From: a virus
IMG/VR virus record: IMGVR_UViG_3300009008_000024
Span: 1-64,000 of that record
Strand: one strand, 5' to 3'
DNA length: 64,000 bases
Shown here: piece after piece, positions 96 to 64,000 of the stretch
How positions within the stretch are numbered: the first letter of the stretch is position 1
Layout: every line of letters begins with the position of its first letter
The notes under the pieces: generated by a model
Database searches by the model: none
The model's input: the letters and a program-made list of their open reading frames with translations, nothing else
Told to the model about the DNA's origin: nothing
Program-made: the position numbers and the translations under genes

Positions 96-3000
96 ATGGC
101 AAAAAAAGGTATAGCAGTAGTAAGTGGAAGCGATTCCAATCTCAAAACTAGGTTTAGTTTTCTTGAGACTGGAGATTCGATCCTTGGTGGCGAAAATACT
201 TCCTCACTTCATCAAGTAACCGGCGCGCTAGATCTTACTGGCACATTGAGATTAGATATATCCGGCGCAGCCGATGGATATCTGCTGGTGTCGGATGCCG
301 ATGGAAATGCATCCTGGAAGTTTAGTGCTAGTTCGTCACAATTGCCAGGTGGCGACGACTACCAAGTACAATATAGTCTGAATAACGATTTTACCGCTAG
401 CGCAGATTTAGAGTTCAGTGCCAGTAGCAATTATAGCACTTTGCGCGTAACGGGAAGTACCGAACTCTTTGGTCCCGCCAACTACTCTTGGACACAGAAG
501 CACCCAACTACTCGCCCAACGGCAGTAATTGAAATTGCCAATGCATACGATCTAGACAGAGAAGTCATTGTGGCATTTGGTGGTGCCACATCCGCAGGCG
601 TTGCTCAGTCTCAAACTTGGGAATGGGATGGACAACAGTGGAATCAGAAATTCCCTGCCACATCTCCTTCTGCCCGTCGTGGACTTTCGCAGTCCATGGT
701 GTACGATCCAGATAGAAAAGTTTTTGTTCTCTTCGGCGGTAATACGGGCGGCACTGCTTTTGCCGAGACTTGGGAATATGATGGAACAACCTGGACACAG
801 ATAGTAACCGCCACTACTCCACCTTCTAGAACATTAGCTTCTCTGGTGTATGATAAAGTACAAAAGAAAGTTATTATGTTTGGTGGAGCAACTTTCGGCC
901 CCACAACACCAAACAATGAAACCTGGGAATACGACGGAACGGATTGGACACTCCTGTCTCCTGCTACTTCTCCTACTGCCCGTTACGGTGCTGGGATGGC
1001 ATACGACGAGAGCAGAAATGTAACTGTCTTGGCAGGAGGCACTACCACTTCCGGAGCGACACAAGAGACTTGGGAGTATAATGGGACAACTTGGACACAG
1101 ATCCTTCCAAACACTTTGCCTGTGCTGGGACTCGGAGACTTAGCATTTACATACGACCCGCTACAAAAGACTGTAATTCTATATGGGGCAAATAGTTCTG
1201 TACAACTTCTGAAATACGACGGAGCAGTCTGGACAGACATAACTGCCGAGGTAGGCACACCTACTCCTGCCGGTGTATCATCGCAAATAATCCGAAATAT
1301 AACAGAGTACGATGTAGGGCGACAGGAACTGTTCGTTTACGGCGGTCTTGGGTTTGAATCTCCCACAACGACCACACTTACGGGTTCTTGGGTTTTAAAG
1401 CAAGCAGATGTGCTAACGGCAGCAGAGAGAAAATCATACTTCTTAGAAGATAAAGATTCCAAAGGACAGTTCACATATGCTCTAGGCGTTGTCAATATCT
1501 CTGGGTCGTCAAACGCGCTGCGAGTGGACACTGACTTAAGTAAGAAAGCGCTATACGTCTCAGATGATTCTGTGGACATCTCAGGGTCAACACGGATGGG
1601 AACGCTCCCTGGACACTCGCACCAAGTAACTGGCGCGCTAGAAGTGACAGGCACGTTGAAGTTGGATATATCTGGTTCGCTTGTGAATGGATATGTGCTG
1701 ACGACTGACACAGTAGGTAATGCATCTTGGCAACCGAATACTACATCATCTTTTGCCGCCGAGGCAGGGAAGGTGTCGAATGCTCTTGGCGAAGGCACTG
1801 GAATTGTACCATTTACTTATGATGGTTCCTCAGTCGAGACTGTCGCGATAGATGAATCAATAGTAGTAACTCTTACTGGTTCGCAAACATTAACAAACAA
1901 AATCATTTCGGGAACCTTCTCTGGTTCCCACACTGGATCTTTTCTTGGAGATGGCAGCGGACTAACCAACATTACTGCATCAGAGATAGAAGCAGCAGGC
2001 GATAATTATGAAATACAGTTCAACCTAAATGATGATTTGTCTGCTAGTCCTAACTATACTTTTGTAAGTGCTAGCAATTTACAACTAACGGGTACGTTTT
2101 TTATAAGTGGCACAGGTGCCGCCCTGAGCACCGAGCGGATTATTGAACTTAAAACCAGCACTGGTGTTACTTCACTCTATGTAGACGAACAAGGTCAAGT
2201 AGTTGCAAGGGGAGGGCAAGTTGGGATTGGTTCAGTTGCTTTTCAGGCAGGAACCCCCGGCGATGCACTCTTTGTTGTTAGGTCAGGTGTGTCTAATGTC
2301 GGCGGCATCGTGGGGACTAGCTTTTTACATAGGATAGGTTCTAAAGATGTCCTTCCTGGCGGCAACCAACCAGACAGACCAGTATATACAAGAGTCAATG
2401 ATGATGATACGGGCATCGGTTTTCCAGATTATGACACAGTAACACTTGTTGCTGCTGAAAAAGATATTCTTTATGCAACTACAGGGTCAGGTGGACAATC
2501 AGAGATCAACATATCGGGAAATTTAGACACTTCCGGATCAACAAAAGCGGGAAGTGATTTATCACATACCCATCAGGTTACTGGTTCCCTGCAATTAACA
2601 GGGGCATTGAATCTAGATATATCTGGTTCCCTTGTAGATGGATATGTTTTAACTACTGATACTGCCGGGAATGCCTCTTGGAGACCAAACACCACTTCAT
2701 CTTTTGCTACCTTTGCTGCTGAAGCAGGCAAAGTATCTAATGCTCTTACTGCTTCTTATGGAATTTCTTCCTTTACTTATGATGGATCATCTACTGCACA
2801 TGTGGGTGTGGATACTTCACTGATAGCAACTCTAACAGGATCCCAGACACTTGAAGATAAAATAATCACTGGTTCATTCACTGGTTCTTTCACGGGTTCT
2901 TACACTGGGTCATTCGCTGGAGACGGAAGTGGTCTAACGGGTGTAACTGCTGCTGAGACAGACACTCTTGATGATGTAACCACGAGAGGTAATACGACCG

Positions 3001-6000
3001 CAAACAGCATTACTGTAGGATCTTTCCTCTCAAATGGCGATAGTGTAATCTCGGGCAATTTAGACATAACTGACACTCTTACTGCGAGAGAGTTCCATAC
3101 TCAAATAATTTCATCTTCCATCATCTACGATTCTGGATCAACTAAGTTCGGAGATTCAGCAGATGATTCCCACCAGTTTACTGGTTCAATTGGTCTGGTA
3201 AGTGGTAATGTAGTCGCTCCATCATTTACTGGATCTTTCCTAGGAGACTTAGTTGGAACGTCTAGCGAGGCAAGCAAAGTAACGAATGAACTAGTTGATG
3301 GAACGGGTATCACCGACTTCACATATGATGGTTCTTCCCCCGCCATTGTTTCAATTGATGAGAGTATCGTTGTTACGCTAACTGGATCGCAAACTCTTAC
3401 TAATAAAATCATTTCTGGATCTTTTAGTGGTTCACATACTGGTTCTTTTACTGGATCCTTTGCTGGGGATGGCAGCGAACTAACTGGCATAACCGCTTCT
3501 GTCATGCTAGAACCATTAACCGGAGCATTTGGCATTGTGCCATTTACATACGACGGATCATCTACTGCTGATGTTGCTGTTGATGACACCGTGATAGTGA
3601 CTCTCACTGGATCTCAGACAATAACTAATAAAATCATCTCTGGAACATTCAGTGGATCTCATACTGGATCGTTTACTGGTTCTTTCTTTGGCGACGGTTC
3701 AGGTCTAACAGGAATCAGCGGTAGCGGAGGAACTCCTGGAGGAAATGATCAGAGCATACAGTTTAACTCTGGAAGCACCTTTTCCGGTTCCGACAACTTT
3801 ACATTTGATTATGATACCAACACTCTGACACTGACAGGAACATTTGATATATCTGGTTCTGGTGCTGGAGCAGTAGAAATAACAGGAGGTCTAAATGTCC
3901 TCGGCGATGTATCCGCTTCAGGTTTTTATGGTGATCTATTTGGCACAGCAAGCGAGGCATCAAAAGTAACGAGTGCCCTTACTGCCTCTTACGGAATTGT
4001 TCCATTCACATATGATGGATCGTCTCCGGAACATGTCGGAGTTGACACTTCTCTGATAGTGACCCTTACAGGATCTCAAACTCTTACAGACAAGATTATT
4101 TCTGGTACCTTCTCTGGATCTCACACAGGGTCATTTACAGGATCGTTCATTGGTGATGGCAGTCAACTAACTGGAATAAACACTGGGTCTGGCACTCCCG
4201 GAGGAAACGATCAAAGTATTCAGTTTAATTCTGGCAGCACTTTCTCTGGTTCTGATAACCTAACCTTCGACTACGACGACAACACACTAACTTTAACTGG
4301 TTCTTTAGAAATTTCAGGTTCTGGTGCTGGTGCAGTAGAAATAACTGGCACCCTCGATGTTCTTGGTAATGTATCTGCTTCCGGATTCTATGGTGACCTG
4401 TTCGGCACTGCTAGCGAAGCGAGCAGCGTAACGAATGCTCTTACCGCTTCTTATGGGATTGTTCCTTTTACCTATGACGGGTCATCTACCGCACACGTTG
4501 GAGTTGATACCTCACTGATAGTGACTCTTACGGGTTCCCAGACACTTGAAGATAAAATAATTTCAGGAACTTTTAGTGGTACATTTGTGGGGGATGGTTC
4601 TGGACTAACAGGCGTGACTGGAAGTGATACTGTTCCTGGCGGAGTCGATCAGAATATACAATTTAATTCTGGCAGTACCTTTTCTGGTTCCGATAATCTA
4701 AACTTCGATTATGACAACAACACACTAACTCTTACCGGCACATTAGAAGTGTCAGGTTCAGGAGCAGGTGCAGTTGAAATAACAGGCACACTGGATGTCT
4801 TAGGGAATGTATCTGCTTCTGGTTTTTATGGTGATTTGTTTGGTACAGCAAGTGAAGCAAGTGAGGTCACGAATGCTCTTACTTCCTCCTACGGTATTGT
4901 TCCTTTTACTTATGATGGATCATCGACCGCCCATGTTGGAGTTGATACTTCACTAATAGTGACACTAACTGGTTCACAAACACTTGAAGATAAAATCATC
5001 TCAGGCACTTTTAGCGGATCTCATACTGGATCATTCACGGGATCGTTTGCTGGCGACGGATCTGGTCTGACAGGAGTGACAGCAGAGTGGGATGGCACTC
5101 ACGTTGGCGATGCCTCCATAACAGGATCTCTTTATGTGACGCAAACAATTTCAGGATCTACCATAACCGGATCTTCTGTTGAGGCAACCCAAATAACTGG
5201 ATCTATCATAAGTGCTTCTAACTTCTACGGTGACGGAAGTGGATTGACAAATGTTACTGCTGAGTGGGATGGCAGTCATGATGGAGATGCTAGCATTACT
5301 GGCACCCTGTATGTAACTGAGGGTGTGGAGGCACAATCATTTACTGGATCTTTGCTAGGCGATGTTATCGGAGATTTGACAGGAAATGTGCTAGGGGACT
5401 TGGTTGGCGACGTGACTGGCAACCTGCTTGGGACTGCATCTTTTGCGGACGAAGCAGCAAAAGTGTCTAATGCTCTTACTGCCGCCTACGGTATTGTTCC
5501 CTTTACTTATGATGGATCATCGACTGCGCATGTTGGAGTTGACACATCGCTTATAGTAACCCTTACGGGTTCTCAGGCGCTTGAAGACAAAATAATCACT
5601 GGGTCTTTTACAGGTTCGTTCACGGGATCTTTCACTGGTTCATTTGCCGGAGACGGTTCAGGTCTGACAGGAGTAACTGCTGTAGAAACAGACACTCTTG
5701 ATGATGTAACAACTCGGGGCAACACGACAGCAAACAGCATCACTATAGGTTCGTTTATATCAAACGGAGACAGTGTAGTTACTGGAAACCTAGATGTAAC
5801 AGGCAAGCTTACTGCTAACGAGTTCCATACACAGATTGTATCATCTTCTATTATTTACGACTCAGGTTCAACCAAGTTTGGCGACTCGGCAGACGATTTA
5901 CATCAGTTTACAGGTTCTATTGATCTTATCAGCGGTAACGTAGAAGCACCTTCTTTTACTGGTTCTTTCTTGGGAGACTTGGTTGGAGATGTAACCGGCA

Positions 6001-9000
6001 ACCTGCTTGGGACTGCTTCTTTCGCAGACGAAGCAGCAAAAGTGTCTAATGCTCTTACCGCTTCTTATGGCATCGTCCCCTTCACATATGACGGATCATC
6101 AACTGCTCATGTTGGGGTCGATACTTCGCTAATAGTGACACTAACTGGTTCACAGACACTTGAAGATAAAATAATTTCAGGAACTTTTAGTGGATCTCAC
6201 ACTGGTTCTTTTACAGGGTCTTTCTTTGGAGACGGATCAGGACTTACTGGGTTGCCTTCTGCCACACCAGGAGGTGTTGACCAAAATATTCAATTCAATT
6301 CAGGTAGCACATTCTCTGGGTCGAACAATTTAGACTTTGATTATAATACTAACACACTAACTCTCACTGGAACACTAGAAGTTTCGGGATCCGGAGCAGG
6401 AGCAGTGGAGATAACTGGCACACTGGATGTGCTAGGAAACGTATCTGCTTCGGGATTTTATGGCGATCTAACAGGAACTGCTTCTTTCGCTACAGAAGCA
6501 GGGAAAGTAACTAATGCTCTGACAGGAGGAGCAGGAATCCTCCCATTCACTTATGACGGGTCTTCTACCGCAACAGTAGCAATAGATAGTACGGTTGTTA
6601 CCCTTGCGGGAGTTCAAACACTTACTAATAAAACAATTACTGGATCTTTCAACGGTGATTTGGTTGGCGATGTAACAGGAAATCTTCTTGGTAATGTTAT
6701 CGGGGATATCACGGGAGATGTTACTGGCAATGTGCTTGGCAACTTGACTGGCGATGTAACTGGTAATGTGCTTGGTGATGTGGTTGGAAATCTTACAGGA
6801 AATGTTCTGGGGAATTTGGTTGGCGATGTAACTGGCAACCTTCTTGGCACCGCTTCTTATGCTGACGAGGCAGGCAAAGTAACAAACGCTCTTACTGGCG
6901 GCCACGGCATTGAAGCATTTACTTACGACGGTTCAGCAACAGCAGAAGTAACACTTGATTCCGGATCCGTTGCTCTAATAGACGACACGGGTAAATCGAC
7001 TTTTTACACCACTTTGTCATCAGCTCTCGGAGTTTCTGTTGACGGCGACACTGTTCATGTCTTTCCAGGAGAGTACCCTGAAAACAACCTTACTGTTCCT
7101 ATTGGTGTAACTGTTAGAGGCATTGGCGGATGGGCAGTAACACGAATTGGAACAACATCTTCTTTGTCAAATATTATGACGGTCAGCGACGACTCATACA
7201 TAGACAACCTGTCTTTCTATGTTCCGTCTGGATCTGGATTGGCATCTGTTGTTTATACAGGATCGGCAGGAAAGACATCTGGCATCAGTAACTTGACATT
7301 CTTTGGCGATGGAGCCACTGGTCTTGGGGACGGAATTGTTATCGAACACTCTGGGTCTGGAAATAGCAAGATGATAGGGGCGGAAGTTAGGTTAGATGGC
7401 GGCGGCGTCAACAGCTTGGCAAGAGTTCGAAGCGGGATAATGGCTTTTGAGTCTATTCATGTGCCTGGAAGTGCCGGGACAGTAAACAATGTTATACAGG
7501 CAGAAGGAACAGGTAGAACCCAACTTGTTGGGTTTAATGTTGGCAACCCGAATGTTACGAATGCTATGCATATGAGCGGCACTTCAACAAACAATGTTTT
7601 TAATGTTAACTTATTTAATTGCTTAAACGGATTTTATTTTGCCGAAGACGGCGTAGACTTTGACCTCGTGGGAGGCAAGGTAGATGTGGTGGCATACACA
7701 GGGTTTGTTCATCCTTCTGTGGTATTCACCACTGCCAGTTCCATTTCTTTGAATGGTGTTTTCGATCCAGCATTCTCGTTTCCTGCCGCTGCTCTAGATG
7801 CTGATTTTGCGATGCAGTTCTCCCAAAAGAATACGACAACAAGGACAGCCGCAATGCGTGTTCTTGGTTCGGACCTAAGGGTCGGATTTCCAGAGAAAGG
7901 CAGTACCACACTTATGGGCCAAGGCGGCCATTATGGCGACAAGTCAACTTTTCTGTCAACAGACGCCACTGCTACTACTGCCTCCGATGGCGGTAACTTC
8001 ATTGACATCACCGATGAGGCAACATCGCTAACAGGGTCCACATTTACATTCCAGACCGCCTCCGCTGGTTCTACTATATTGATGTGTAGCAACCGCTTTA
8101 CATCCACAGACCTTCCTCTAAAACATTATGGTTTTCAGCACAAAACAGCTGTCGGAGATATAAGCGGATCTTATGCTTTTGATATATGGAACGGGACGGA
8201 GTGGGAAGAAACATCTGTTCAGACAGTTTCCGTCGATCACACTCACGGATATGCGAACAATGTGTTTATGAGAAGCAACCTGAAAGAAGACCTTCAATAC
8301 GGGGAAGTTACCACAACTAGTGGAAGTTGGGCACTAAAAACAATTAACAGTGTTGAGGGGCACTGGTCTAGAATAAGAATAGTCTCAACTGGATCGACTG
8401 CCCCTGCGTCTTTTGAATATTTGAACCTGTCGCCGCACATTACCACTTACAATGCAATTGGGCAGAAGCATGCGACTGGATTATCAATGTGGAGAGAAAC
8501 TATCGCTGGGACAGGCAACATCTTTGGTGAGACGGGTGGTGTAATCTCGGCAACACCAGCCATTGGCTCTGGCGGCGGAACTACTGGGTGGAATCATAAT
8601 ATGAAGAACTGCCGGTTGAACCAAACTGGAGATGCCATCTATACACAGTTTGCACTACCTGCTGGTATATGTACTGCATATCCTTTGCGACTACAACTAG
8701 TATATAGTTTGACGAACTCCTCCACACAAACATCTGCTCCGACTGGTACGATGTCGGTGTTACCACTTGAAGCTGCTGGTGTACAAGTAGCAGATCCCAC
8801 TGGCGGCACTGAACCAATTTTACGACCTTTTAGTTCTACGGAAACACTGACGGCGAAGGCAGCAACAGCAATTGCGGCGGATCTTGTCCCGGAAGGAGTA
8901 ACACTCCCGGCAGCAAGTCTAGACGATAAGGTGATACAAACTAGTTATGAACCATACGACATAAGTTCTTATTATGAAGATGATGTGATAGCGATTAGGT

Positions 9001-9113
9001 TTGAACTTACAGATGACGGTGCTCCCAACCAAGATGTTGTTGTATGGGCAATTGTAATCGAAGGTGTTAAGTTTGCAGATGGTAAGGTACTAGACCACGC
9101 TCATCATATTTAG
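96..9113 (+). CDS. giant tail-fibre / adhesion protein with kelch-like propeller and GS/T-rich repeat modules
   Basis: A 3005-residue structural protein, most likely a long tail fibre or other virion-surface appendage. Residues about 125-435 hold six kelch-like blades, each with a WEYDGTTW-type strand and a following YD...V.FGG strand, so a beta-propeller is predicted. Residues about 550-2290 are built from repeated modules with signatures SYGIVPFTYDGSS, LTGSQTL.DKIISG and FSGSHTGSFTGSF..GDGS. Near residues 2187-2252 lies a short-period GDVTGNVLG repeat. Residues about 2300-2550 look like a right-handed beta-helix (ENNLTVPIGVTVRGIGG), and the C terminus is non-repetitive. An AACTAATTAT element lies upstream; two more fibre genes follow. 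A fibre role rests on composition, size and position; the receptor is unknown. A kelch propeller at the N terminus of a phage fibre is unusual. Confidence 0.75.
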   Translation: MAKKGIAVVSGSDSNLKTRFSFLETGDSILGGENTSSLHQVTGALDLTGTLRLDISGAADGYLLVSDADGNASWKFSASSSQLPGGDDYQVQYSLNNDFTASADLEFSASSNYSTLRVTGSTELFGPANYSWTQKHPTTRPTAVIEIANAYDLDREVIVAFGGATSAGVAQSQTWEWDGQQWNQKFPATSPSARRGLSQSMVYDPDRKVFVLFGGNTGGTAFAETWEYDGTTWTQIVTATTPPSRTLASLVYDKVQKKVIMFGGATFGPTTPNNETWEYDGTDWTLLSPATSPTARYGAGMAYDESRNVTVLAGGTTTSGATQETWEYNGTTWTQILPNTLPVLGLGDLAFTYDPLQKTVILYGANSSVQLLKYDGAVWTDITAEVGTPTPAGVSSQIIRNITEYDVGRQELFVYGGLGFESPTTTTLTGSWVLKQADVLTAAERKSYFLEDKDSKGQFTYALGVVNISGSSNALRVDTDLSKKALYVSDDSVDISGSTRMGTLPGHSHQVTGALEVTGTLKLDISGSLVNGYVLTTDTVGNASWQPNTTSSFAAEAGKVSNALGEGTGIVPFTYDGSSVETVAIDESIVVTLTGSQTLTNKIISGTFSGSHTGSFLGDGSGLTNITASEIEAAGDNYEIQFNLNDDLSASPNYTFVSASNLQLTGTFFISGTGAALSTERIIELKTSTGVTSLYVDEQGQVVARGGQVGIGSVAFQAGTPGDALFVVRSGVSNVGGIVGTSFLHRIGSKDVLPGGNQPDRPVYTRVNDDDTGIGFPDYDTVTLVAAEKDILYATTGSGGQSEINISGNLDTSGSTKAGSDLSHTHQVTGSLQLTGALNLDISGSLVDGYVLTTDTAGNASWRPNTTSSFATFAAEAGKVSNALTASYGISSFTYDGSSTAHVGVDTSLIATLTGSQTLEDKIITGSFTGSFTGSYTGSFAGDGSGLTGVTAAETDTLDDVTTRGNTTANSITVGSFLSNGDSVISGNLDITDTLTAREFHTQIISSSIIYDSGSTKFGDSADDSHQFTGSIGLVSGNVVAPSFTGSFLGDLVGTSSEASKVTNELVDGTGITDFTYDGSSPAIVSIDESIVVTLTGSQTLTNKIISGSFSGSHTGSFTGSFAGDGSELTGITASVMLEPLTGAFGIVPFTYDGSSTADVAVDDTVIVTLTGSQTITNKIISGTFSGSHTGSFTGSFFGDGSGLTGISGSGGTPGGNDQSIQFNSGSTFSGSDNFTFDYDTNTLTLTGTFDISGSGAGAVEITGGLNVLGDVSASGFYGDLFGTASEASKVTSALTASYGIVPFTYDGSSPEHVGVDTSLIVTLTGSQTLTDKIISGTFSGSHTGSFTGSFIGDGSQLTGINTGSGTPGGNDQSIQFNSGSTFSGSDNLTFDYDDNTLTLTGSLEISGSGAGAVEITGTLDVLGNVSASGFYGDLFGTASEASSVTNALTASYGIVPFTYDGSSTAHVGVDTSLIVTLTGSQTLEDKIISGTFSGTFVGDGSGLTGVTGSDTVPGGVDQNIQFNSGSTFSGSDNLNFDYDNNTLTLTGTLEVSGSGAGAVEITGTLDVLGNVSASGFYGDLFGTASEASEVTNALTSSYGIVPFTYDGSSTAHVGVDTSLIVTLTGSQTLEDKIISGTFSGSHTGSFTGSFAGDGSGLTGVTAEWDGTHVGDASITGSLYVTQTISGSTITGSSVEATQITGSIISASNFYGDGSGLTNVTAEWDGSHDGDASITGTLYVTEGVEAQSFTGSLLGDVIGDLTGNVLGDLVGDVTGNLLGTASFADEAAKVSNALTAAYGIVPFTYDGSSTAHVGVDTSLIVTLTGSQALEDKIITGSFTGSFTGSFTGSFAGDGSGLTGVTAVETDTLDDVTTRGNTTANSITIGSFISNGDSVVTGNLDVTGKLTANEFHTQIVSSSIIYDSGSTKFGDSADDLHQFTGSIDLISGNVEAPSFTGSFLGDLVGDVTGNLLGTASFADEAAKVSNALTASYGIVPFTYDGSSTAHVGVDTSLIVTLTGSQTLEDKIISGTFSGSHTGSFTGSFFGDGSGLTGLPSATPGGVDQNIQFNSGSTFSGSNNLDFDYNTNTLTLTGTLEVSGSGAGAVEITGTLDVLGNVSASGFYGDLTGTASFATEAGKVTNALTGGAGILPFTYDGSSTATVAIDSTVVTLAGVQTLTNKTITGSFNGDLVGDVTGNLLGNVIGDITGDVTGNVLGNLTGDVTGNVLGDVVGNLTGNVLGNLVGDVTGNLLGTASYADEAGKVTNALTGGHGIEAFTYDGSATAEVTLDSGSVALIDDTGKSTFYTTLSSALGVSVDGDTVHVFPGEYPENNLTVPIGVTVRGIGGWAVTRIGTTSSLSNIMTVSDDSYIDNLSFYVPSGSGLASVVYTGSAGKTSGISNLTFFGDGATGLGDGIVIEHSGSGNSKMIGAEVRLDGGGVNSLARVRSGIMAFESIHVPGSAGTVNNVIQAEGTGRTQLVGFNVGNPNVTNAMHMSGTSTNNVFNVNLFNCLNGFYFAEDGVDFDLVGGKVDVVAYTGFVHPSVVFTTASSISLNGVFDPAFSFPAAALDADFAMQFSQKNTTTRTAAMRVLGSDLRVGFPEKGSTTLMGQGGHYGDKSTFLSTDATATTASDGGNFIDITDEATSLTGSTFTFQTASAGSTILMCSNRFTSTDLPLKHYGFQHKTAVGDISGSYAFDIWNGTEWEETSVQTVSVDHTHGYANNVFMRSNLKEDLQYGEVTTTSGSWALKTINSVEGHWSRIRIVSTGSTAPASFEYLNLSPHITTYNAIGQKHATGLSMWRETIAGTGNIFGETGGVISATPAIGSGGGTTGWNHNMKNCRLNQTGDAIYTQFALPAGICTAYPLRLQLVYSLTNSSTQTSAPTGTMSVLPLEAAGVQVADPTGGTEPILRPFSSTETLTAKAATAIAADLVPEGVTLPAASLDDKVIQTSYEPYDISSYYEDDVIAIRFELTDDGAPNQDVVVWAIVIEGVKFADGKVLDHAHHI
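1741..6960 (+). repeat. tandem degenerate protein-coding repeats in the giant fibre gene
   Basis: About eleven copies of a module whose core encodes a YGIVPFTYDGSS-like strand followed by LTGSQTL and a run of SGS/TGS triplets. Cores lie near 1800, 2760, 3310, 3530, 3990, 4460, 4890, 5490, 6070, 6535 and 6905. Synonymous codons differ between copies, so the repeats are kept at protein level and are not a recent DNA amplification. A related copy occurs in the next gene near 10560-10850. Confidence 0.8.
6655..6855 (+). repeat. short-period GDVTGNVLG repeat segment
   Basis: Within the giant fibre, about 65 residues are a run of GD(V/L/I)TGN(V/L)LG-type units with a period of about 8-9 residues. 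A shorter run recurs near 5360-5430 and in the next fibre near 10558-10620. Such regular G/N/V/L spacing suggests a stacked beta-solenoid or fibrous stem. This is an inference from pattern only. Confidence 0.6.
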
Positions 9114-36466: not shown

Positions 36467-37075
36467 ATGCTAAAAATTATTTTAGGAGTGGGAATGGTTT
36501 GCGCGGGAACGCTGATCGGGCCCGGAAAAGTTTACGATTTAATGACCAACCAAAAAAGCGTTGCCGACTATACGGCAACATTAAAGATTGTTAAATCCTT
36601 AGAAGATGGCAAACTTTCCCAGTTAGAGAAATCAACATATCGTCGTGATGGGTACACAAAAAAATACAATAGATATAAGAAAATTAGAATAAGATATTTG
36701 GATAGGTATCGTTATGTTGTGGGGAAACATCGATTAAATCACTTTCTGTGTAGGGATAAGCGTGTGAAATATAGTCCCACGACTTATGTAATAATTAACC
36801 CCCAACTTTTAGAAAAAGTGATGTTAATTGATGAGGCGAGTGGTGGTCAATTTTTTATTACATCTGGGCACCGCACTCCCACCTACAACGCTACCCTCCA
36901 CGGTGCCACCAAGAACAGTCGCCACCTAGAAGGGCGAGCAGTTGATCTTATCCCTATTAATATTTCATTAAAAGAATTGGGAAAAATTATAAGAAGTGTA
37001 GAAAAGGCGCGCCCGGATCTTAAAGGGTATATGCATATTTATGAGAAGCATGTCCACACGGATGTCGCCCGTTGA
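36467..37075 (+). CDS. membrane-anchored M15-family peptidoglycan peptidase
   Basis: 202 residues. N-terminal hydrophobic segment (MLKIILGVGMVCAGTLIG) looks like a signal anchor. The catalytic core has SGHRTPTYNATLHGA, then SRHLEGRAVDL (zinc ligands His and Asp) and HIYEKHVHTDVA (third His), the M15 D,D-/L,D-carboxypeptidase layout. Likely acts on peptide stems in the periplasm, as an endolysin-like or wall-trimming enzyme. It follows the L,D-transpeptidase by 46 nt, so the two wall enzymes may act together. The gap has a TATAAT-like box (36435) with no good -35. Confidence 0.8.
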   Translation: MLKIILGVGMVCAGTLIGPGKVYDLMTNQKSVADYTATLKIVKSLEDGKLSQLEKSTYRRDGYTKKYNRYKKIRIRYLDRYRYVVGKHRLNHFLCRDKRVKYSPTTYVIINPQLLEKVMLIDEASGGQFFITSGHRTPTYNATLHGATKNSRHLEGRAVDLIPINISLKELGKIIRSVEKARPDLKGYMHIYEKHVHTDVAR

Positions 37076-46869: not shown

Positions 46870-46970
46870 GGTAACACTAGACAGTGGATGTGTGGTGTTT
46901 ATAGTGAGATTGCGCTGCCGTTTTGGAGCGCATTAACCAAGTCATACTTGCTTATAAAGGAGAAAATATT

Positions 46971-47399
46971 ATGACTAATCCAATGATAAAAAGAGTGAAC
47001 TACCCTTCAATTGTAGGGAGGGGCACTTTCGATCAATTTTTCAACCAGATTTTCGAGGATCCATTTACAATGGTGAAGAGGTCAACAGAGGGATATCCCC
47101 TCACAGACCTGTACAAGGATGAAGAGGAGAATCAGGTTATTGAAGTAGCATTGGCGGGGTTTTCAAGAGACGAGTTGAACATTGAGGTTAAAGATAACTC
47201 AATTACTATCTCGTGCGAGTCCGCCGGAACAGATGAGCAGCAGCGAAGGATTGCGCGTAGGTCTTTTACGCGGTCTTTCGTCGATTACGATCATCAACTC
47301 GACATGAGGAAGTCGGGCGCCTCATTTGAAAATGGGTTGTTGAAAATTGTTATTCCGCCTACGGAAGAAGCAAAACCGACTGTTATTGATATCCAGTAA
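46971..47399 (+). CDS. small heat-shock protein (Hsp20 / alpha-crystallin)
   Basis: 142 residues from ATG 46971, the first ATG with a good ribosome-binding site (AAAGGAG). The alpha-crystallin domain spans about 35-135: FDQFFNQIFEDPF at the N arm, VIEVALAGFSRDELNIEV, and the A/G-x-x-x-x-G-x-L element as ASFENGLLKIVIP. ATP-independent holdase; such genes are common in T4-like cyanophages. Co-transcribed with the tRNAs. Confidence 0.9.
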   Translation: MTNPMIKRVNYPSIVGRGTFDQFFNQIFEDPFTMVKRSTEGYPLTDLYKDEEENQVIEVALAGFSRDELNIEVKDNSITISCESAGTDEQQRRIARRSFTRSFVDYDHQLDMRKSGASFENGLLKIVIPPTEEAKPTVIDIQ

Positions 47400-54427: not shown

Positions 54428-55081
54428 GTGACAAAGATATTGCCGCATACGTGCTTTGTGATGATATTGTTCGCGAACATTTCACTTGGTTGTTTCGCGA
54501 TATCATCTAAAATGCACATATGGAATAGGATTGACGGGACATACGACTGTGTTACACCCAGCGACTTTACTCGTATTCCGGGATTCAAATTTACATACCA
54601 AAAGCAGGATAATTGCAAACTGTATCCCAAGGAGGCGGTGTCTATTGGACTGAATGTTTTTTACCTTTATTGGTATGCGGCTTTTGGTGATACCGCTGAC
54701 GCTGTGTTGAGTAACCTCAACAATCTTATAATAGAGTGGCGCACCGAGAAGATGACATTCCGGAATGGGTATCAAATGGACGGCACATTCGTGCCAGAGG
54801 GTGTAGCTATAGGGTTGGCACATGGGAAGGGTCTTATACAGGTATATGTCCCAGAAGGCGCTTCTATAGAAGAGACTTCTTTTGTTCATGAGTTGATTCA
54901 CATTTCCATTAATGCTGCCTCTGGAACGGATCATGGGGATCCGGATCACGAGGGAGATAAATACCCGGGATGGACTGCTAGGCATACTCAATTGATACCA
55001 GAGATCAACAGCGCTTTACGCGCAATTATGGAAATAAGACATGGTTCGGAAGATCAGAAAGAAATCGACCCTCGACAATAA
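54428..55081 (+). CDS. secreted zincin-like protein with HELIH motif
   Basis: 217 residues. N-terminal hydrophobic segment (CFVMILFANISLGCFAIS) is a signal peptide, so the protein should leave the cytoplasm. FVHELIHISI places a HExxH zinc motif at His154-His158; DHGDPDHEGD downstream has several His/Asp/Glu that could give a third ligand. Probably a metalloprotease or catalytically related protein; no named family recognised. Start is GTG 54428 or the downstream ATG 54461; neither has a good Shine-Dalgarno. The end overlaps the next gene by 41 nt. Confidence 0.55.
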   Translation: MTKILPHTCFVMILFANISLGCFAISSKMHIWNRIDGTYDCVTPSDFTRIPGFKFTYQKQDNCKLYPKEAVSIGLNVFYLYWYAAFGDTADAVLSNLNNLIIEWRTEKMTFRNGYQMDGTFVPEGVAIGLAHGKGLIQVYVPEGASIEETSFVHELIHISINAASGTDHGDPDHEGDKYPGWTARHTQLIPEINSALRAIMEIRHGSEDQKEIDPRQ

Positions 55082-55932: not shown

Positions 55933-57030
55933 ATGACTAAAAAGAAAACATTGCTCAAGGAAGGGACTGTACGCCAATTTATGAAATTGGCGAACATAGA
56001 ACCTCTCACTCCCGGTTTCGTCGAGAAACTTTATGAAGGAGAGGAAGTCCAAGAAGAGGAAGTCCAAGAAGAGGAAGTCCAAGAAGAGGGCACCAAGAAA
56101 GATGACGAACTCAATGATACGGAAGATGACGGTGCGCGCGGCGAGAAGAAGGGCGATGAAGCATATGTAAACGAGCAAGAAGAGGTAGAAGTCGAAGACG
56201 AAGTGGAACTTGGCGGCGAGGAAGTACTTGGCGGCGAGGAAGAGGAAGAGGTGGATGTTACTGCTCTTGTTCGGGCAATTGCTGATGCTGTAGAAGCGCA
56301 CACTGGAGTCTCTGTCGATGTGGCAGATGAGGACGCGGGCGAAGAAGTAGAACTTGGCGCGGAAGAAGAAGTAGAACTTGGCGATGGCGAAGAAGTAGAA
56401 CTTGGCGCCGAAGAAGAGGTCGAAGAATTAGAGGAAAGCGAAGAGGTCCAAGAAGAGACCCAAGATTTGGAGGAGATAATCTCCACCATCGCTGAAAACG
56501 TCACAAAGCGTCTCGAAGAGATGGCAAAAAAAAAAATAAAAATGCATGAAGGTCCGTGGGACACTTGGTCCAACGCGATAGATATGGGATTGGGCGGCGG
56601 CGGCGGCAAAGAGTTTGAAAAACAAGATTATGCCGCTAAGGTTGCTCACGGAATGGCACAACGCGCCAAGAGACTCCCGTCTGAAGACCCGGCACTCTCG
56701 CGCAAGAAGCACGCAGCGCGCAAAAAGCGTGGAGAAAAATCAAAGCGCGCACGAACAGGATATGAAGATATCACCACTGCTATAAAGGCGCACCCTAATG
56801 CTCCCGAGGGATTCGGGGGTGGTCAAAAAGATGTAGATGAACTCGCATCCGCCCTGGGATTACGCGCTGGAAAAGATTTTAGAAATTATCCTCAAATGAA
56901 GAAAGCAGTATTGAAAGCGCTCGACGGAACGCCAAAGGCACCTGAAAAGAAACTCCCCGGCAATAAACGCCCAGGAGGACCGCGAAAGGTTATCCAACCA
57001 AGGCGCCTTACCATGAGAGACGTTTCATGA
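55933..57030 (+). CDS. acidic virion/prohead-core-type protein
   Basis: 365 residues. Starts TLLKEGTVRQFMKLANIEPL; LKE|G at residues 8-11 fits the prohead-protease rule, so the N terminus may be a capsid-targeting segment. Residues about 35-180 are extremely Glu-rich with in-frame repeats (VQEEE three times; EEVELGAEE several times). The C-terminal third is basic (RKKHAARKKRGEKSKRAR) and may bind DNA. Charge layout resembles prohead core or internal proteins such as the gp22-like scaffold. Late element upstream, terminator downstream. Confidence 0.6.
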   Translation: MTKKKTLLKEGTVRQFMKLANIEPLTPGFVEKLYEGEEVQEEEVQEEEVQEEGTKKDDELNDTEDDGARGEKKGDEAYVNEQEEVEVEDEVELGGEEVLGGEEEEEVDVTALVRAIADAVEAHTGVSVDVADEDAGEEVELGAEEEVELGDGEEVELGAEEEVEELEESEEVQEETQDLEEIISTIAENVTKRLEEMAKKKIKMHEGPWDTWSNAIDMGLGGGGGKEFEKQDYAAKVAHGMAQRAKRLPSEDPALSRKKHAARKKRGEKSKRARTGYEDITTAIKAHPNAPEGFGGGQKDVDELASALGLRAGKDFRNYPQMKKAVLKALDGTPKAPEKKLPGNKRPGGPRKVIQPRRLTMRDVS

Positions 57031-57086: not shown

Positions 57087-57115
57087 CTTGACAAACGATC
57101 AAAATGTGTATATAA
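57087..57115 (+). promoter_or_regulatory. consensus sigma-70 promoter for the GroEL unit (TTGACA-17-TATAAT)
   Basis: Perfect -35 (57087-57092) and -10 (57110-57115) with a 17-bp spacer, directly after the terminator. Confidence 0.9.
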
Positions 57116-57138
57116 TATACGTGAGATCATTTTAGGAA

Positions 57139-57184: not shown

Positions 57185-57403
57185 ATGTTTTTCTTTTTTC
57201 GCGCAATTGTTTACGAGGTGTACTACGGGATTCTCCTGCTCCCACTCCTATGTGCGCATAAGTACTACTGGAAGAAGGTATTACACTTCAAGGACAAGAG
57301 GAAAATAAGGAGATTAGCATATTATTTCTTAAAATCTCAAAAATATGAAAGGAAGATAGAGATGAATAAAATCGATAAATATCGGAGGATCAATGGCGAC
57401 TAA
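57185..57403 (+). CDS. small hydrophobic/basic protein ahead of GroEL
   Basis: 72 residues, N-terminal hydrophobic stretch (MFFFFRAIVYEVYYGILLLPLL, likely one membrane segment) and a Lys/Arg-rich cytoplasmic tail. Its stop overlaps the GroEL start by 11 nt, so it is probably translated. The ribosome-binding site is weak. A competing 45-codon frame from ATG 57168 looks less protein-like. Confidence 0.4.
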   Translation: MFFFFRAIVYEVYYGILLLPLLCAHKYYWKKVLHFKDKRKIRRLAYYFLKSQKYERKIEMNKIDKYRRINGD

Positions 57404-58988
57404 GCACTATCTCAGCACAAAAGATGGTTTAAACCAGAAAATTTTAGAGGGGGTTAATAAGTTAGCAGACAATGTTGCTGCTACGATGGGACCGAAAGGG
57501 AGAAATGTTATACTTCATGCGCCCGGACACAACCCCATGATTACCAAGGATGGAGTAACTGTTGCCAAATTTGTGGATTTTGAAGATCCCTTTGAAAACG
57601 TTGGCGCCCAAATAATTAAACAAGCAAGCGAGGAGACCAACAGCAATGCTGGGGATGGAACTACGACCGCGACAGTTCTTGCCCGGGCAATTTTAGTAGA
57701 GGCACAGAAGCATTTGGTAGCAGGTCTTTCGCCCGTTGAACTCAAGAGGGGCATTGATAAGGCAACTGAAATTATGGTCGAGAACCTGAGAAGCGATGCG
57801 CGCAAGGTAACAAGACTGGAAGACATAGAAGACATTGCCACAATTTCTGCCAATGGCGATAGGACAATAGGGAAACTTCTTTCTACTGCGATTGACATGA
57901 TAGGTAACGACGGCAGCATAACCATCGAAGAGGCAAGATCCCTAGACACTTCTCTGGATGTCATGGAAGGATTCAGGTTTGATAGTGGGTATACTGCAAC
58001 TGCCTTCGTCAATGATGAGAGGAGGGGTCTGATGCGATATGATAACCCCCTCTATTTGGTGACAGATGAGAAGATTGAGTTTGTTGAAGATATCCTTCCC
58101 GTTCTAGAACTGGCGGCGCGAGACGGTAGACCACTCATAGTGGTGTGCGAAGAGGTGGAGGGTCAGGCGCTAGCTGCCATGATCATGAATGCAGTCCGCG
58201 GCACCATGAAGGTTGCAGCGATAAAGGCGCCCAACTATGGCGAAGAGCGCAGGAATATTTTAGAGGATCTTTGCGTGAGTGTGGGTGCAACTTTTGTTTC
58301 CCGCAGTTCAGGCATGCAGTTGAAAGATGTGAAGTTGCAGCACCTAGGAAGTTCCAAGACAATTGAATGCGAGAAGTTTTCTACCACCATAGTAGGTGGG
58401 AAGGGGGAAGAGGATAAGGTGCAAGAGAAGATCGATGCGCTTAAGAGTCTTTTCGAGAAAACAAGTGGCATGCATGAGTGCGAAAGGATACAAGAGAGAA
58501 TAACGAGATTGGCGAGCGGAATTGCTGTCATTAGTGTTGGTGGCGCCACAGAAATAGAGATGACTGAGAAAAAGCACCGTGTCGAAGACGCACTTGAGGC
58601 GGTAAAGTCGGCACAAAAAGAGGGTATCGTGGTAGGCGGCGGAATGGCACTCCTAAGCGTTGCTTCTCGATTGAACCTGGCAGATTTTTGTGAGGAAGGC
58701 ACAGAAGAATCATGCGGCGCTAGCATTGTCTTGAGAGCGGTTGCGGCACCTCTGCGCCAAATGGTAGAAAACGCAGGGGGCAAGCCAGATGTTATATTGA
58801 ACGCAGCAAGAGAGTTAGATGCTGGTCGCGGATTTGATTTGCGTAAGGATTTTGGAGAATGCGAGGCAGTGGATATGTTCGAAGAGGGGATCATAGATCC
58901 ACTAAAGGTGGTAAGATCTGCACTTCAGAACGCTGCATCGGCAGCAGGAACTCTTTTGACTAGCAGTCATGCGATTATATCCAAATAG
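57393..58988 (+). CDS. groEL: phage-encoded GroEL chaperonin
   Basis: 531 residues (E. coli GroEL 548). TMGPKGRNVIL, TKDGVTVAKF, AGDGTTTATVLA (ATP-binding DGTTT with Asp88), and EGIVVGGGMALL with its surroundings are conserved chaperonin elements, so equatorial, intermediate and apical domains are all present. The C-terminal GGM tail is missing. Start ATG follows CGGAGGA. GroEL genes are rare in phages (known in Pseudomonas jumbo phages EL and OBP). A GroES/gp31-like partner lies at 43923, so the phage may fold its own large capsid and fibre proteins. Confidence 0.95.
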   Translation: MATKHYLSTKDGLNQKILEGVNKLADNVAATMGPKGRNVILHAPGHNPMITKDGVTVAKFVDFEDPFENVGAQIIKQASEETNSNAGDGTTTATVLARAILVEAQKHLVAGLSPVELKRGIDKATEIMVENLRSDARKVTRLEDIEDIATISANGDRTIGKLLSTAIDMIGNDGSITIEEARSLDTSLDVMEGFRFDSGYTATAFVNDERRGLMRYDNPLYLVTDEKIEFVEDILPVLELAARDGRPLIVVCEEVEGQALAAMIMNAVRGTMKVAAIKAPNYGEERRNILEDLCVSVGATFVSRSSGMQLKDVKLQHLGSSKTIECEKFSTTIVGGKGEEDKVQEKIDALKSLFEKTSGMHECERIQERITRLASGIAVISVGGATEIEMTEKKHRVEDALEAVKSAQKEGIVVGGGMALLSVASRLNLADFCEEGTEESCGASIVLRAVAAPLRQMVENAGGKPDVILNAARELDAGRGFDLRKDFGECEAVDMFEEGIIDPLKVVRSALQNAASAAGTLLTSSHAIISK

Positions 58989-59000: not shown

Positions 59001-59023
59001 AAATATTGCACGGGGGAATCGTT

Positions 59024-59302
59024 GTGGCGTCAACAAAAGAAACAAAAGAAGTTTGTTTAACAATGCTGGATGGGAAATTGGATATGCTGGACATGAAAAT
59101 AGATGAGTTAAAAGAAAAGCAAGAAGACATGGCCGAGGACATATCAAAGGTGAAAGAGGCAGTTTACCACCCGGATGAAGGATTGTACGCTAGGTTACGA
59201 GAATTAGAATCATGGCAGAAAACTTCTACTCGGTTCATATGGATGCTAGTGTCTTCTACCCTCGGAATATTCGCCTATATTGTTACTAAAATTTTATCTT
59301 AA
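59024..59302 (+). CDS. coiled-coil protein with C-terminal membrane segment (XhlA/holin-accessory-like)
   Basis: 92 residues from GTG 59024 (GGGGG 8-12 nt upstream). Residues 10-55 form a coiled coil (LDMKIDELKEKQEDMAEDIS), followed by LRELESWQKTSTRF and one transmembrane helix at the C terminus (FIWMLVSSTLGIFAYIVTKI). Layout resembles XhlA-type or other lysis-accessory membrane proteins of phages. Late-type element upstream fits a lysis-time role, but no holin is proven. Confidence 0.5.
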   Translation: MASTKETKEVCLTMLDGKLDMLDMKIDELKEKQEDMAEDISKVKEAVYHPDEGLYARLRELESWQKTSTRFIWMLVSSTLGIFAYIVTKILS

Positions 59303-59310
59303 TTTTTTAC

Positions 59311-59339
59311 TTGACAAGCGGCGCAAGATGCGATATAAT
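59311..59339 (+). promoter_or_regulatory. consensus sigma-70 promoter (TTGACA-17-TATAAT)
   Basis: Perfect -35 (59311-59316), 17-bp spacer, perfect -10 (59334-59339), 31 nt before the next chosen start. Drives a cluster of small genes. Confidence 0.88.
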
Positions 59340-60267: not shown

Positions 60268-60528
60268 GTGGTAGAATATATTCATGTCTATTGCAAGGTG
60301 GAATGTCCCTTTTGCAAGGATGCGATCACTCTCTTGGAGGAAGAGAAGAGGGATTTTGTGGTGACTGTCATTGATCACTGCAAACCATTTGAGGACGGAA
60401 TTAAAAGGGAATTGAATTTTAAGACAGTCCCTATAGTTCTCAAGCATCGCGCCGACGGAAAAGTAGAGATGATCGGTGGGTACACCGAGTTGCGATCTTA
60501 TATTCAAAAAGAGAAAGGAGCAAAATGA
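60268..60528 (+). CDS. glutaredoxin
   Basis: 86 residues, GTG start. CPFC active site at residues 13-16, TVP cis-proline loop (KTVPIVL), and GGYTEL for glutathione contact: full glutaredoxin pattern. T4 gene nrdC is the functional parallel. Likely reduces the phage class II ribonucleotide reductase or other thiols. Confidence 0.9.
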   Translation: MVEYIHVYCKVECPFCKDAITLLEEEKRDFVVTVIDHCKPFEDGIKRELNFKTVPIVLKHRADGKVEMIGGYTELRSYIQKEKGAK

Positions 60529-61841: not shown

Positions 61842-63788
61842 ATGGCGAGACACACCTATTTAGCACTTTTATTTTTATTTTTGTTGCATGGGTGTTCGTG
61901 CGATGAGAATCTAACATATGTGTGTCCGCCTCCCCAACCTTGCGTAAATCTTTCTGATGGCGGAATAGAAGTGTTGGACGAGAGTTTCATCTCTCGCACG
62001 AAGGGTGAATGCCGATTAGGATACACTGACTGCGATGAGGAAAACAAAGACATCTGCATTGGTCAAATAAACCCAACAGAAGAGACATGTGACGGTTTGG
62101 ATAATGATTGCGACGGCATAGCAGATAATGGGTTGTTTATAGATGAAGACAATGATTCATTCAACGATCCAGATTCTTGCTTGGGACCAAAAACAGATTG
62201 CGATGATGACGACCCAGCAGCATTTCCAGGCAATGAAGAAGTGTGTGACGGCGTGGATAATGATTGTGATGGCGAAATAGACAACATAGGACCATTCGAA
62301 TGTTGGACTGGTGGAGAGAGCGCAGTATTTAATGAGAATTCTCCATGTAGGACAGGTGTTGTAGAGTGTGTTGATGGTGCATGGTCAGGGTGTTTGGGGC
62401 AAGTTTTCCCAGTGCCAGAACAGTGTGATTTAATAGACAATGATTGCAATGGAGAAGTTGATGATTCTCCATGGGGAGAGGGAGAACCATGTGGACCGCA
62501 AAGCACCATAGGGCAGTGCTCATATGGTTATGGGGTGTGCGTCTCGGGCGAGATGTATTGTATCGATGCCGTCTATCCGCAGAATGAAGCATGTGATGCT
62601 GTTGATAATGATTGCAATGGGTTTGTTGATGAAAATTTAGAAAGACTTTGCGAAACTGAATGTGGGTATGGCGTAGAAGAGTGCTCTGGTGGCATTTGGG
62701 ATAATTGTAGTGCTCCTGCGCCGCAGGATGAGATATGCGACATGATCGACAACGACTGCGACGGAGAGGTGGATGAGGGATGTTTGTGCATTGTAGGCGA
62801 TTCTAGGACGTGCCAGGAGGAGAATATGTATGATCCTGTAAGCGGAGAGCATAGGAATTGTGGTATCGGGGTAGAATATTGTGATATTTTTGGAATGTGG
62901 GGAGACTGCTACTGGACAGGCATTCAGGCCGAAGTTTGTAATAACTGGGACGATGACTGTGACGACATAATAGATATGATGCAGTCATCTTGTGGAAATC
63001 AGGATAGTTCTACGGTGGGAGTTGGCGAATGTAAACTTGGCACCACCACATGCATAGAGGGTGAGTGGGGAATATGCGAAGGTGAAATATCTCCCATGGA
63101 AGAAGTGTGTGATCAACTGGACAATGACTGCGATGGAGAGATTGATGAAGATCTGAACTCTCATGAGAAAGTTGATATGGTATTTGCTATTGATATATCT
63201 GGTTCCATGTGCAATTATGTAGACGCACTGGCGCAGGGAATAATGGCATATATTGCCGACTTCGAAGATACGGAACATAGGTTTGGGTTGGTTGTGTTCC
63301 CCCCTCCCAACTATTCACCAGTAGGGGAATATCAACCCAGGTATCAAGTAATGACAATTCCTCCTCTTGTTGACGTGACATCTTTCTTATTTGAATTGGC
63401 AAATCTAGATTGTAATGGCGGAGGATCAGAACCAAGTTATGATACGATGTATGATCTGGTGCGCCCCGACGACCCAGCTGGCATAGGGTGGAGAGACGAT
63501 GCCTATCCCTACATAATAATGATTACAGACGAACCGGCACAGTCTTGGGACAACCTAGGAGAATCCAATATTGCTCCCCACACCAATAATTGTGCAATAG
63601 GCGAATGTGTTGCCGGCGATAAGATAGAAGTGTTTGTTATTTCAAAACCAGGATATCTGTGGAGTTGGGACGATGTTATTTATGGAGACTTCGACAGATA
63701 TTTTGCTATAGATCCAGCAGAAGGAAGTAGGTATACTATAATGCTGCAAGAAATTTTTACAAACGTGTGTTTGCCAGAAGGAGAGTAG
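61842..63788 (+). CDS. lipoprotein with MopE-type metal-binding repeats and a VWA domain
   Basis: 648 residues. Signal peptide with lipobox LHGC (Cys18). Residues about 75-440 carry seven repeats of the type CDGxDNDCDGxxD (for example CDGLDNDCDGIADN, CDGVDNDCDGEIDN), known as a putative metal-binding motif in MopE-like and many delta-proteobacterial surface proteins; Asp/Asn loops suggest calcium. Then a von Willebrand A domain begins at DMVFAIDISGS, with the MIDAS DxSxS at 451-455. Should sit on the host envelope or decorate the virion. Unusual cargo for a T4-type phage; may derive from the host. Confidence 0.8.
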   Translation: MARHTYLALLFLFLLHGCSCDENLTYVCPPPQPCVNLSDGGIEVLDESFISRTKGECRLGYTDCDEENKDICIGQINPTEETCDGLDNDCDGIADNGLFIDEDNDSFNDPDSCLGPKTDCDDDDPAAFPGNEEVCDGVDNDCDGEIDNIGPFECWTGGESAVFNENSPCRTGVVECVDGAWSGCLGQVFPVPEQCDLIDNDCNGEVDDSPWGEGEPCGPQSTIGQCSYGYGVCVSGEMYCIDAVYPQNEACDAVDNDCNGFVDENLERLCETECGYGVEECSGGIWDNCSAPAPQDEICDMIDNDCDGEVDEGCLCIVGDSRTCQEENMYDPVSGEHRNCGIGVEYCDIFGMWGDCYWTGIQAEVCNNWDDDCDDIIDMMQSSCGNQDSSTVGVGECKLGTTTCIEGEWGICEGEISPMEEVCDQLDNDCDGEIDEDLNSHEKVDMVFAIDISGSMCNYVDALAQGIMAYIADFEDTEHRFGLVVFPPPNYSPVGEYQPRYQVMTIPPLVDVTSFLFELANLDCNGGGSEPSYDTMYDLVRPDDPAGIGWRDDAYPYIIMITDEPAQSWDNLGESNIAPHTNNCAIGECVAGDKIEVFVISKPGYLWSWDDVIYGDFDRYFAIDPAEGSRYTIMLQEIFTNVCLPEGE

Positions 63789-63809: not shown

Positions 63810-64000
63810 ATGATGTCTATTCGCGAATTCAATAAAGATGTAGTTGAAAAAAAGCTTGACATTGCCCATGGTGATCTGGTATACTTAAGGGGAGATTTAG
63901 GTTTCCGGGCGGGAATAGGCGTTGTTATATCAACGGAGAGATGGAGTTTTGACGTTTTTGATCTGCCTTTTGCCACCCAAGAGAGATGCTTTTTTATGGA
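63810..64000 (+). CDS. partial unknown protein with GDLVYLR motif
   Basis: Open from ATGATG at 63810 to the window edge (63 codons). MMSIREFNKDVVEKKLDIAH then GDLVYLRGDLGFRAG; the GDLVYLR part matches the protein at 59681. No Shine-Dalgarno. A sigma-70-like promoter is embedded at 63856. Confidence 0.5.
   Translation, partial: MMSIREFNKDVVEKKLDIAHGDLVYLRGDLGFRAGIGVVISTERWSFDVFDLPFATQERCFFM
63856..63885 (+). promoter_or_regulatory. possible intragenic sigma-70-type promoter (TTGACA-18-TATACT)
   Basis: Perfect CTTGACA, 18-bp spacer, TATACT. It falls inside the partial gene at the window edge; what it drives lies beyond the window. Confidence 0.4.

Follow-up and report, generated by a model that had tools for sequence, protein, structure and literature searches.

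A conserved MopE-repeat/VWA lipoprotein with which T4-like phages may re-dress the surface of their host cells

The locus and its carrier phage

The gene considered here lies near the end of a stretch of 64,000 nucleotides (the window) that forms part of a virus record of 80,801 bases in IMG/VR, IMGVR_UViG_3300009008_000024, and it closes a run of genes that follows a phage chaperonin on the same strand. The features of this region are listed below; positions beyond 64,000 are those of the record.

57088..57116, + strand: perfect sigma-70 promoter match (by consensus) before the GroEL gene
57393..58988, + strand: phage GroEL chaperonin (PF00118, 6.6e-61; phrog_5725), a syntenic neighbour
59006..59302, + strand: small, weakly XhlA-like protein with a coiled coil and a C-terminal hydrophobic segment, usually adjoining GroEL
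59311..59339, + strand: perfect sigma-70 match, TTGACA-17-TATAAT, heading the co-directional run whose last gene encodes the lipoprotein
60268..60528, + strand: glutaredoxin (PF00462, 2.7e-7), in the same gene run as the lipoprotein
61842..63788, + strand: MopE-repeat/VWA lipoprotein gene, 648 amino acids, ATG start
63810..64000 (to 64100 in the record), + strand: conserved small gene directly downstream of the lipoprotein gene (cluster c25, 14 loci)
64113-64613 of the record: exported VanY-family peptidase after the small downstream gene (PF02557, 4.8e-17)

Besides GroEL, the record encodes a Gp23 major capsid protein, a tail sheath, ribonucleotide reductase, a DnaB-like helicase and an endolysin. 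The best match of the capsid protein, at about 40% identity, is in an uncultured phage of 484 kb, followed by phages of Microcystis and Flavobacterium and by the Rhodothermus phage RM378, and since this similarity to known phages is only distant the carrier is assigned to a deep, uncultured T4-like lineage. A GC content of 44% leaves the host undecided. Chaperonin genes have been described in several groups of uncultured marine viruses, in a study that mentions neither lipoproteins nor von Willebrand domains (PMC5332604).

Several other genes of this phage deserve mention in their own right. An Hsp20 gene (46923-47399) makes up, with GroEL (57393-58988) and glutaredoxin (60268-60528), an unusually full protein-folding set for one phage. 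The structural block starts with a protein of 3005 amino acids containing Kelch repeats (96-9113), perhaps a tail or fibre protein, and upstream of GroEL lies a protein with a low-complexity acidic repeat (EVELGAEEE...; 55933-57030) that is conserved in relatives. A second VWA-type pair, present in the window phage and its relatives, consists of a MoxR-like AAA ATPase (67851-68960 of the record; L015:6851-7960) and a DUF2201 metallopeptidase/VWA-like protein (69379-70560; L015:8379-9560), both without a signal peptide.

Architecture of the lipoprotein

Three parts can be distinguished in the protein, namely an exported N-terminus, a repeat-bearing stalk and a C-terminal domain.

61842..61892, + strand: signal peptide, residues 1-17, short and hydrophobic, read from the sequence
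61893-61895, + strand: codon of Cys18, the candidate lipid-anchored residue, likewise from the sequence, with Ser at +2
62010..63161, + strand: Cys-rich acidic stalk with seven MopE-type repeat cores (PF11617)
63162..63770, + strand: VWA (integrin I-like) domain, residues 441-643, from an AF2 model and structural match
63192..63206, + strand: MIDAS motif DxSxS, residues 451-455 (DISGS); D451 and S455 in 65/65 proteins, S453 in 62/65 and T in 3/65
63429..63431, + strand: E530, candidate third MIDAS ligand, invariant (65/65)
63528..63533, + strand: D563-E564 of the [TS]DExxQ[ST] motif, each invariant (65/65)

The N-terminus reads MARHTYLALLFLFLLHGC-S, with a signal that ends in LHG-C18-S, and the pairing of a signal peptide with a lipobox Cys by which bacterial lipoproteins are predicted is present. 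The lipobox of the window copy (LHGC) is imperfect, having an unusual His at -2; a relative that is 82% identical, L016, has LSGC-S. The stalk that follows contains seven cores of the form C-x(2-4)-D-[DN]-D-C-[DN], at 62088, 62244, 62424, 62592, 62736, 62937 and 63108, and the Pfam family PF11617 matches the protein far beyond chance (E 1.8e-27, with 95.7 bits against a curated cut-off of 27). The whole protein has 50 Cys residues and is very acidic, with 141 D/E against 20 K/R.

In the window copy the C-terminal domain falls below the reporting limit of the Pfam VWA families, which were detected at E<=0.01 in 7 of 15 related domains, and a sequence search of the PDB found no relative of the lipoprotein. 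Modelled alone with AF2, however, the domain is confidently predicted to adopt a Rossmann-like VWA/integrin I fold (pLDDT 88.9, pTM 0.88). Its model aligns over 171 residues with the integrin alpha1 I domain (5hgj_B; Z 17.9, rmsd 2.4), and integrin I domains head the list of its structural neighbours, followed closely by other VWA folds. Because TFIIH subunits score almost level with the integrins in the structural list (VIA-align), the match indicates a VWA fold and not descent from integrins. The full-length model has a low pTM of 0.37, and the fold claims are therefore drawn from the VWA part alone.

Among 65 non-redundant proteins of the family described below, D451, S455, M456, E530, D563 and E564 are invariant and position 534 is D in 64. 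A complete predicted metal site is thus conserved, comprising DxSxS with S or T at 453, E530 and D563; E530 is presumably a metal ligand, by analogy with integrin beta I domains. Identity to the window VWA domain drops to 21% among these relatives while the MIDAS residues are invariant or conservatively changed, and since the MIDAS is kept as the rest of the tip varies, the conserved core would appear to be a metal-dependent binding site.

An earlier note on this DNA, made without database searches, had described seven MopE-type repeats, a lipobox and a MIDAS-bearing VWA domain, together giving the anatomy of an adhesin-like surface lipoprotein. The seven cores and the PF11617 match bear out the repeats, and the DISGS at 63192, the conservation of its residues and the modelled fold confirm the VWA domain. 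A lipobox-type signal with Cys18 is present too, but the His at -2 makes the lipobox of this copy imperfect. With a lipoprotein-type signal, repeats and a C-terminal VWA domain all in place, the overall anatomy stands.

A conserved phage family and its genomic address

Thirteen loci, with identities down to 32%, came from an initial scan of IMG/VR. A profile scan of the same resource gave tblastn matches in at least 424 stretches, of which the best 80 were fetched, while those beyond the best 80 may share the repeats only. In total 84 loci were studied, the window included and two of them being contigs binned in genome assemblies, and these yielded the non-redundant set of 65 proteins (<90% identical). 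All 77 untruncated copies checked have the repeats and the C-terminal VWA domain, and nearly all have a lipoprotein-type N-terminus. Most relatives contain 5-8 repeat cores and a few contain 3-4. The anchor Cys is aligned in 61 of the 65 non-redundant relatives and most match the lipobox pattern; the +2 residue is Ser in 25/65 and Asp in only 3/65, which is compatible with predicted sorting to the outer membrane.

All 14 members of the core alignment (A1) match PF11617, and none of them has a PHROG match at E<=0.001. Two divergent members, searched against 50,697 phage records (INPHARED), likewise gave no match. Literature searches whose scope excluded most subscription journals returned no paper on MopE and phage, and nothing related on VWA, lipoprotein and superinfection exclusion. 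The emphasis of the earlier note, on one phage that carries such a protein, was misplaced: the gene is no isolated host gene but belongs to a conserved, unnamed phage protein family found across many loci with its own architecture and genomic address. As the finding that would speak against it, the note had named closest relatives confined to unrelated phages with known virion roles; annotated phages yielded no relative. One record of 267 kb, IMGVR_UViG_3300030329_006583, holds two divergent copies of the gene (L063 and L067) about 50 kb apart. Another, UViG 2716884848_000001 (L074), has an IMG number of the genome type, and its source may be an isolate or a single cell.

T4-like phages with a Gp23 capsid protein carry this family, and they usually encode GroEL on the strand of the lipoprotein gene. 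Of 50 related records, which are mostly fragments, 40 proved to contain GroEL and 23 Gp23; wherever strands were compared, the lipoprotein gene is co-stranded with both. The window has Gp23 47.5 kb and GroEL 4.4 kb before this gene, and most of the nearer relatives likewise have GroEL upstream of it, at a distance of 2-17 kb. In a distant group (e.g. L051, L075-L091) GroEL is sited elsewhere, and the neighbours include GroES-like, ThyX-like and DNA polymerase III-like genes, as named from their sequences. Within a distant subgroup, a small DUF5658 membrane protein recurs as the neighbour of the lipoprotein (L080:4327-4644 and 17 other loci).

An exported hydrolase is encoded at most three genes away in 30 of the 84 loci, whereas the figure for the other genes in these loci is 10%, both being uncorrected for kinship; in the non-redundant set this holds for 26 of 65 loci. 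In the other 54 of the 84, none was recognised at this distance. Four unrelated families are represented, namely VanY (9 loci), SLT transglycosylases (6), trypsin-like proteases (11) and metalloprotease-like proteins (4), the first three assigned by Pfam and the last from a HELIH/HELVH motif alone. At 54428-55081 the window phage itself encodes an exported, probable metalloprotease that has a HELIH motif but no Pfam match, and whose homologues adjoin the lipoprotein gene in L006, L029, L030 and L044.

Promoters and expected timing

Near-consensus sigma-70 promoters are strongly enriched in the record. TTGACA-N16-18-TATAAT at 11 or more of 12 positions occurs 19 times, compared with 2.2 expected from first-order Markov shuffles, and for perfect 12/12 matches the number expected in Markov-shuffled copies of the record is 0.0. 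Of these near-consensus sites 15 are on the + strand, every one of them at 32 kb or further along, and the coding strand of the main structural block is free of them. No + strand terminator was detected from the promoter match at 59311-59339 to the lipoprotein gene. A promoter matching 11-12 of 12 positions also lies 64-145 bp before the start of the tblastn match in L002, L007, L025-L028, L036 and L037, a count uncorrected for kinship. When a T4-type late promoter was sought, TATAAATA was found only twice in the record. The distribution of the sigma-70 sites suggests transcription by the host sigma-70 polymerase and, by analogy, expression early or in the middle of infection.

Cellular relatives and the clue to the host

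The protein was said in the earlier note to be typical of delta-proteobacterial genomes, a group whose relevant members are now placed in Myxococcota, and to offer a clue to the host group. For its building blocks the first point is supported, as PF11617 occurs in 51 of 57 sampled Myxococcota genomes, often with more than 100 matches, versus 0 of 14 control genomes, and the VWA profile matches 36 of 112 Myxococcota genomes. The second holds in part: the clue points towards Myxococcota, but it would fit another phylum rich in MopE repeats and, coming from sequence likeness, falls short of proof.

Two groups of Myxococcota proteins each resemble one half of the phage protein. Surface proteins with PF11617 (L105, L106, L112, L115) have repeat stretches that reach 50% identity over residues 154-440, and lipoboxes are present in several of these proteins; they differ in being usually much longer, with other C-termini and no VWA domain that aligns to that of the phage. 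On the other hand, many of the inspected VWA matches are lipoproteins of the DxSGSM...SDExxQS type (L117, L119, L121; profile E to 3e-14), which share with the phage family the lipoprotein signal, the MIDAS and the motif [TSV]DE-x2-[QC]S, but are typically 320-560 amino acids long and poor in Cys, with no MopE repeats in those sampled. No inspected Myxococcota protein joins the repeats to this VWA subtype. Most probably, the two modules derive from surface proteins of Myxococcota-like bacteria or have a common origin with them, which makes such bacteria candidate hosts.

Two bacterial assemblies, both species representatives, contain phage contigs with the gene, and both look like binning contamination. 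A host assignment from the bin holding L016 (NZBZ01000006.1; 0.9 Mb) was rejected: genomes of its phylum are mostly about 1 Mb and nearly all lack the VWA subtype (1 of 115 has it, the phage contig itself excepted), so that the co-binning looks spurious. The bin holding L017 (PBOB01000020.1; Acidiferrobacteraceae) was rejected too, as it contains little beyond the phage copy, and in its phylum the VWA subtype was found in 2 of 119 genomes, the phage contig of G052 excepted.

In Myxococcus xanthus, CglB (known) and CglD (predicted) are outer-membrane VWA lipoproteins drawn at the cell surface, CglB being part of the gliding machinery (PMC4488436). Another paper (PMC11444678) cites CglB as a surface adhesin, along with a preprint in which CglD is called integrin-like. 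These are cellular motility proteins, likened here to the phage protein by description and not by sequence. Similarly, Methylococcus MopE was compared by name only, through the repeat name PF11617.

Proposed role in the infected cell

Phage exclusion lipoproteins made in the infected cell, such as Llp of T5 and those of the Cor type, are small receptor blockers that lack both repeats and a VWA domain, and sequence kinship with the present family is not expected. To our knowledge, the surface proteins that phages encode are mostly small exclusion factors of this kind. A large integrin-like lipoprotein kept by many uncultured T4-like lineages, with a conserved metal site, a recurring neighbourhood, no PHROG name and no match in annotated phages, is of interest in this regard: if displayed on infected cells, it would give the virus control over what the cell sticks to or which phages enter it. 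It further suggests hosts that can be tested for, Myxococcota-like bacteria, in a phage group that has no known cultured members.

The reading that we favour, with a probability of roughly 0.45, is that the protein is an early-expressed, metal-dependent adhesin of the outer membrane that alters what the infected cell binds. The N-terminal lipid would anchor it to the outer membrane, and the protein is probably held on the outside of the cell. The acidic, Cys-rich MopE repeats might form a metal-loaded stalk, stabilised by disulfides and Ca2+, and the VWA domain would be the ligand-binding tip, acting through its MIDAS metal. With host sigma-70 RNA polymerase using promoters outside the main structural block, the protein could reach the surface before lysis. 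It would then change the binding of the cell by occupying ligands on the surface, either on its own or together with the neighbouring exported enzymes that cut wall or protein. The consequence rated most likely is that adsorption or entry of further phages is blocked; the second, nearly as likely, is that the cell sticks to neighbours or particles. Surface occlusion or exclusion is preferred because the promoters are of the early type.

The shared architecture, the conserved MIDAS, the predicted fold, the +2 residues and the promoter distribution were counted in favour of this reading, as were the lipoprotein signals of the Myxococcota relatives of each half and the exported hydrolases near the gene in 30 of 84 loci; the His at -2 in the window lipobox and the 54 loci without a hydrolase were counted against it. 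These viruses may accordingly re-dress the host surface with an adhesion protein resembling myxobacterial ones. The wider proposition, that a widespread lineage of large T4-like phages has as a near-core gene one for an integrin-like, metal-dependent adhesin that re-dresses the cell early, adhesion molecules being a standard viral tool in this group, is put forward more tentatively.

Among the alternatives, the one that survives best is that the adhesin attaches infected cells to particles or to other cells and thereby brings progeny out among fresh hosts, with no role in exclusion. The same anatomy and VWA fold would serve it, and a VWA lipoprotein, CglB, acts in gliding (PMC4488436), but nothing ties the phage lipoprotein to aggregation and we rate this somewhat below the favoured reading. 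Appreciably less likely is a mimic that competes with VWA/MopE lipoproteins of the host, e.g. gliding or pilus adhesins, and so removes the receptor of other phages. Both halves do resemble Myxococcota proteins, and the VWA motif SDExx[QSC]S is shared with lipoproteins of that phylum; however, Myxococcota are no more than candidate hosts, and the combination of repeats and VWA is absent from their sampled proteins, which leaves the idea that a single host protein is directly mimicked without support.

The VanY, SLT or protease genes near the lipoprotein gene in 30 of 84 loci could also indicate a lysis or wall-remodelling factor that positions exported peptidoglycan enzymes. This is improbable, given that the phage has a distinct M15 endolysin-like gene close to its structural genes (36467-37075), that the partner enzyme differs between lineages or is absent, and that the promoter type suggests early expression. 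Even less credit is given to a scavenger of copper or calcium: PF11617 is named Cu-binding_MopE and the acidic residues could bind many cations, but the family name is an annotation and storage would leave the conserved VWA MIDAS unexplained. The copper-binding reading in particular was dropped for lack of support. A structural virion protein is the least probable of all, for although VWA domains occur in other phage proteins, mostly of unknown role, this one has a signal peptide with a lipid-anchor Cys and no PHROG, and its gene belongs to another gene block than the capsid gene, 47 kb away.
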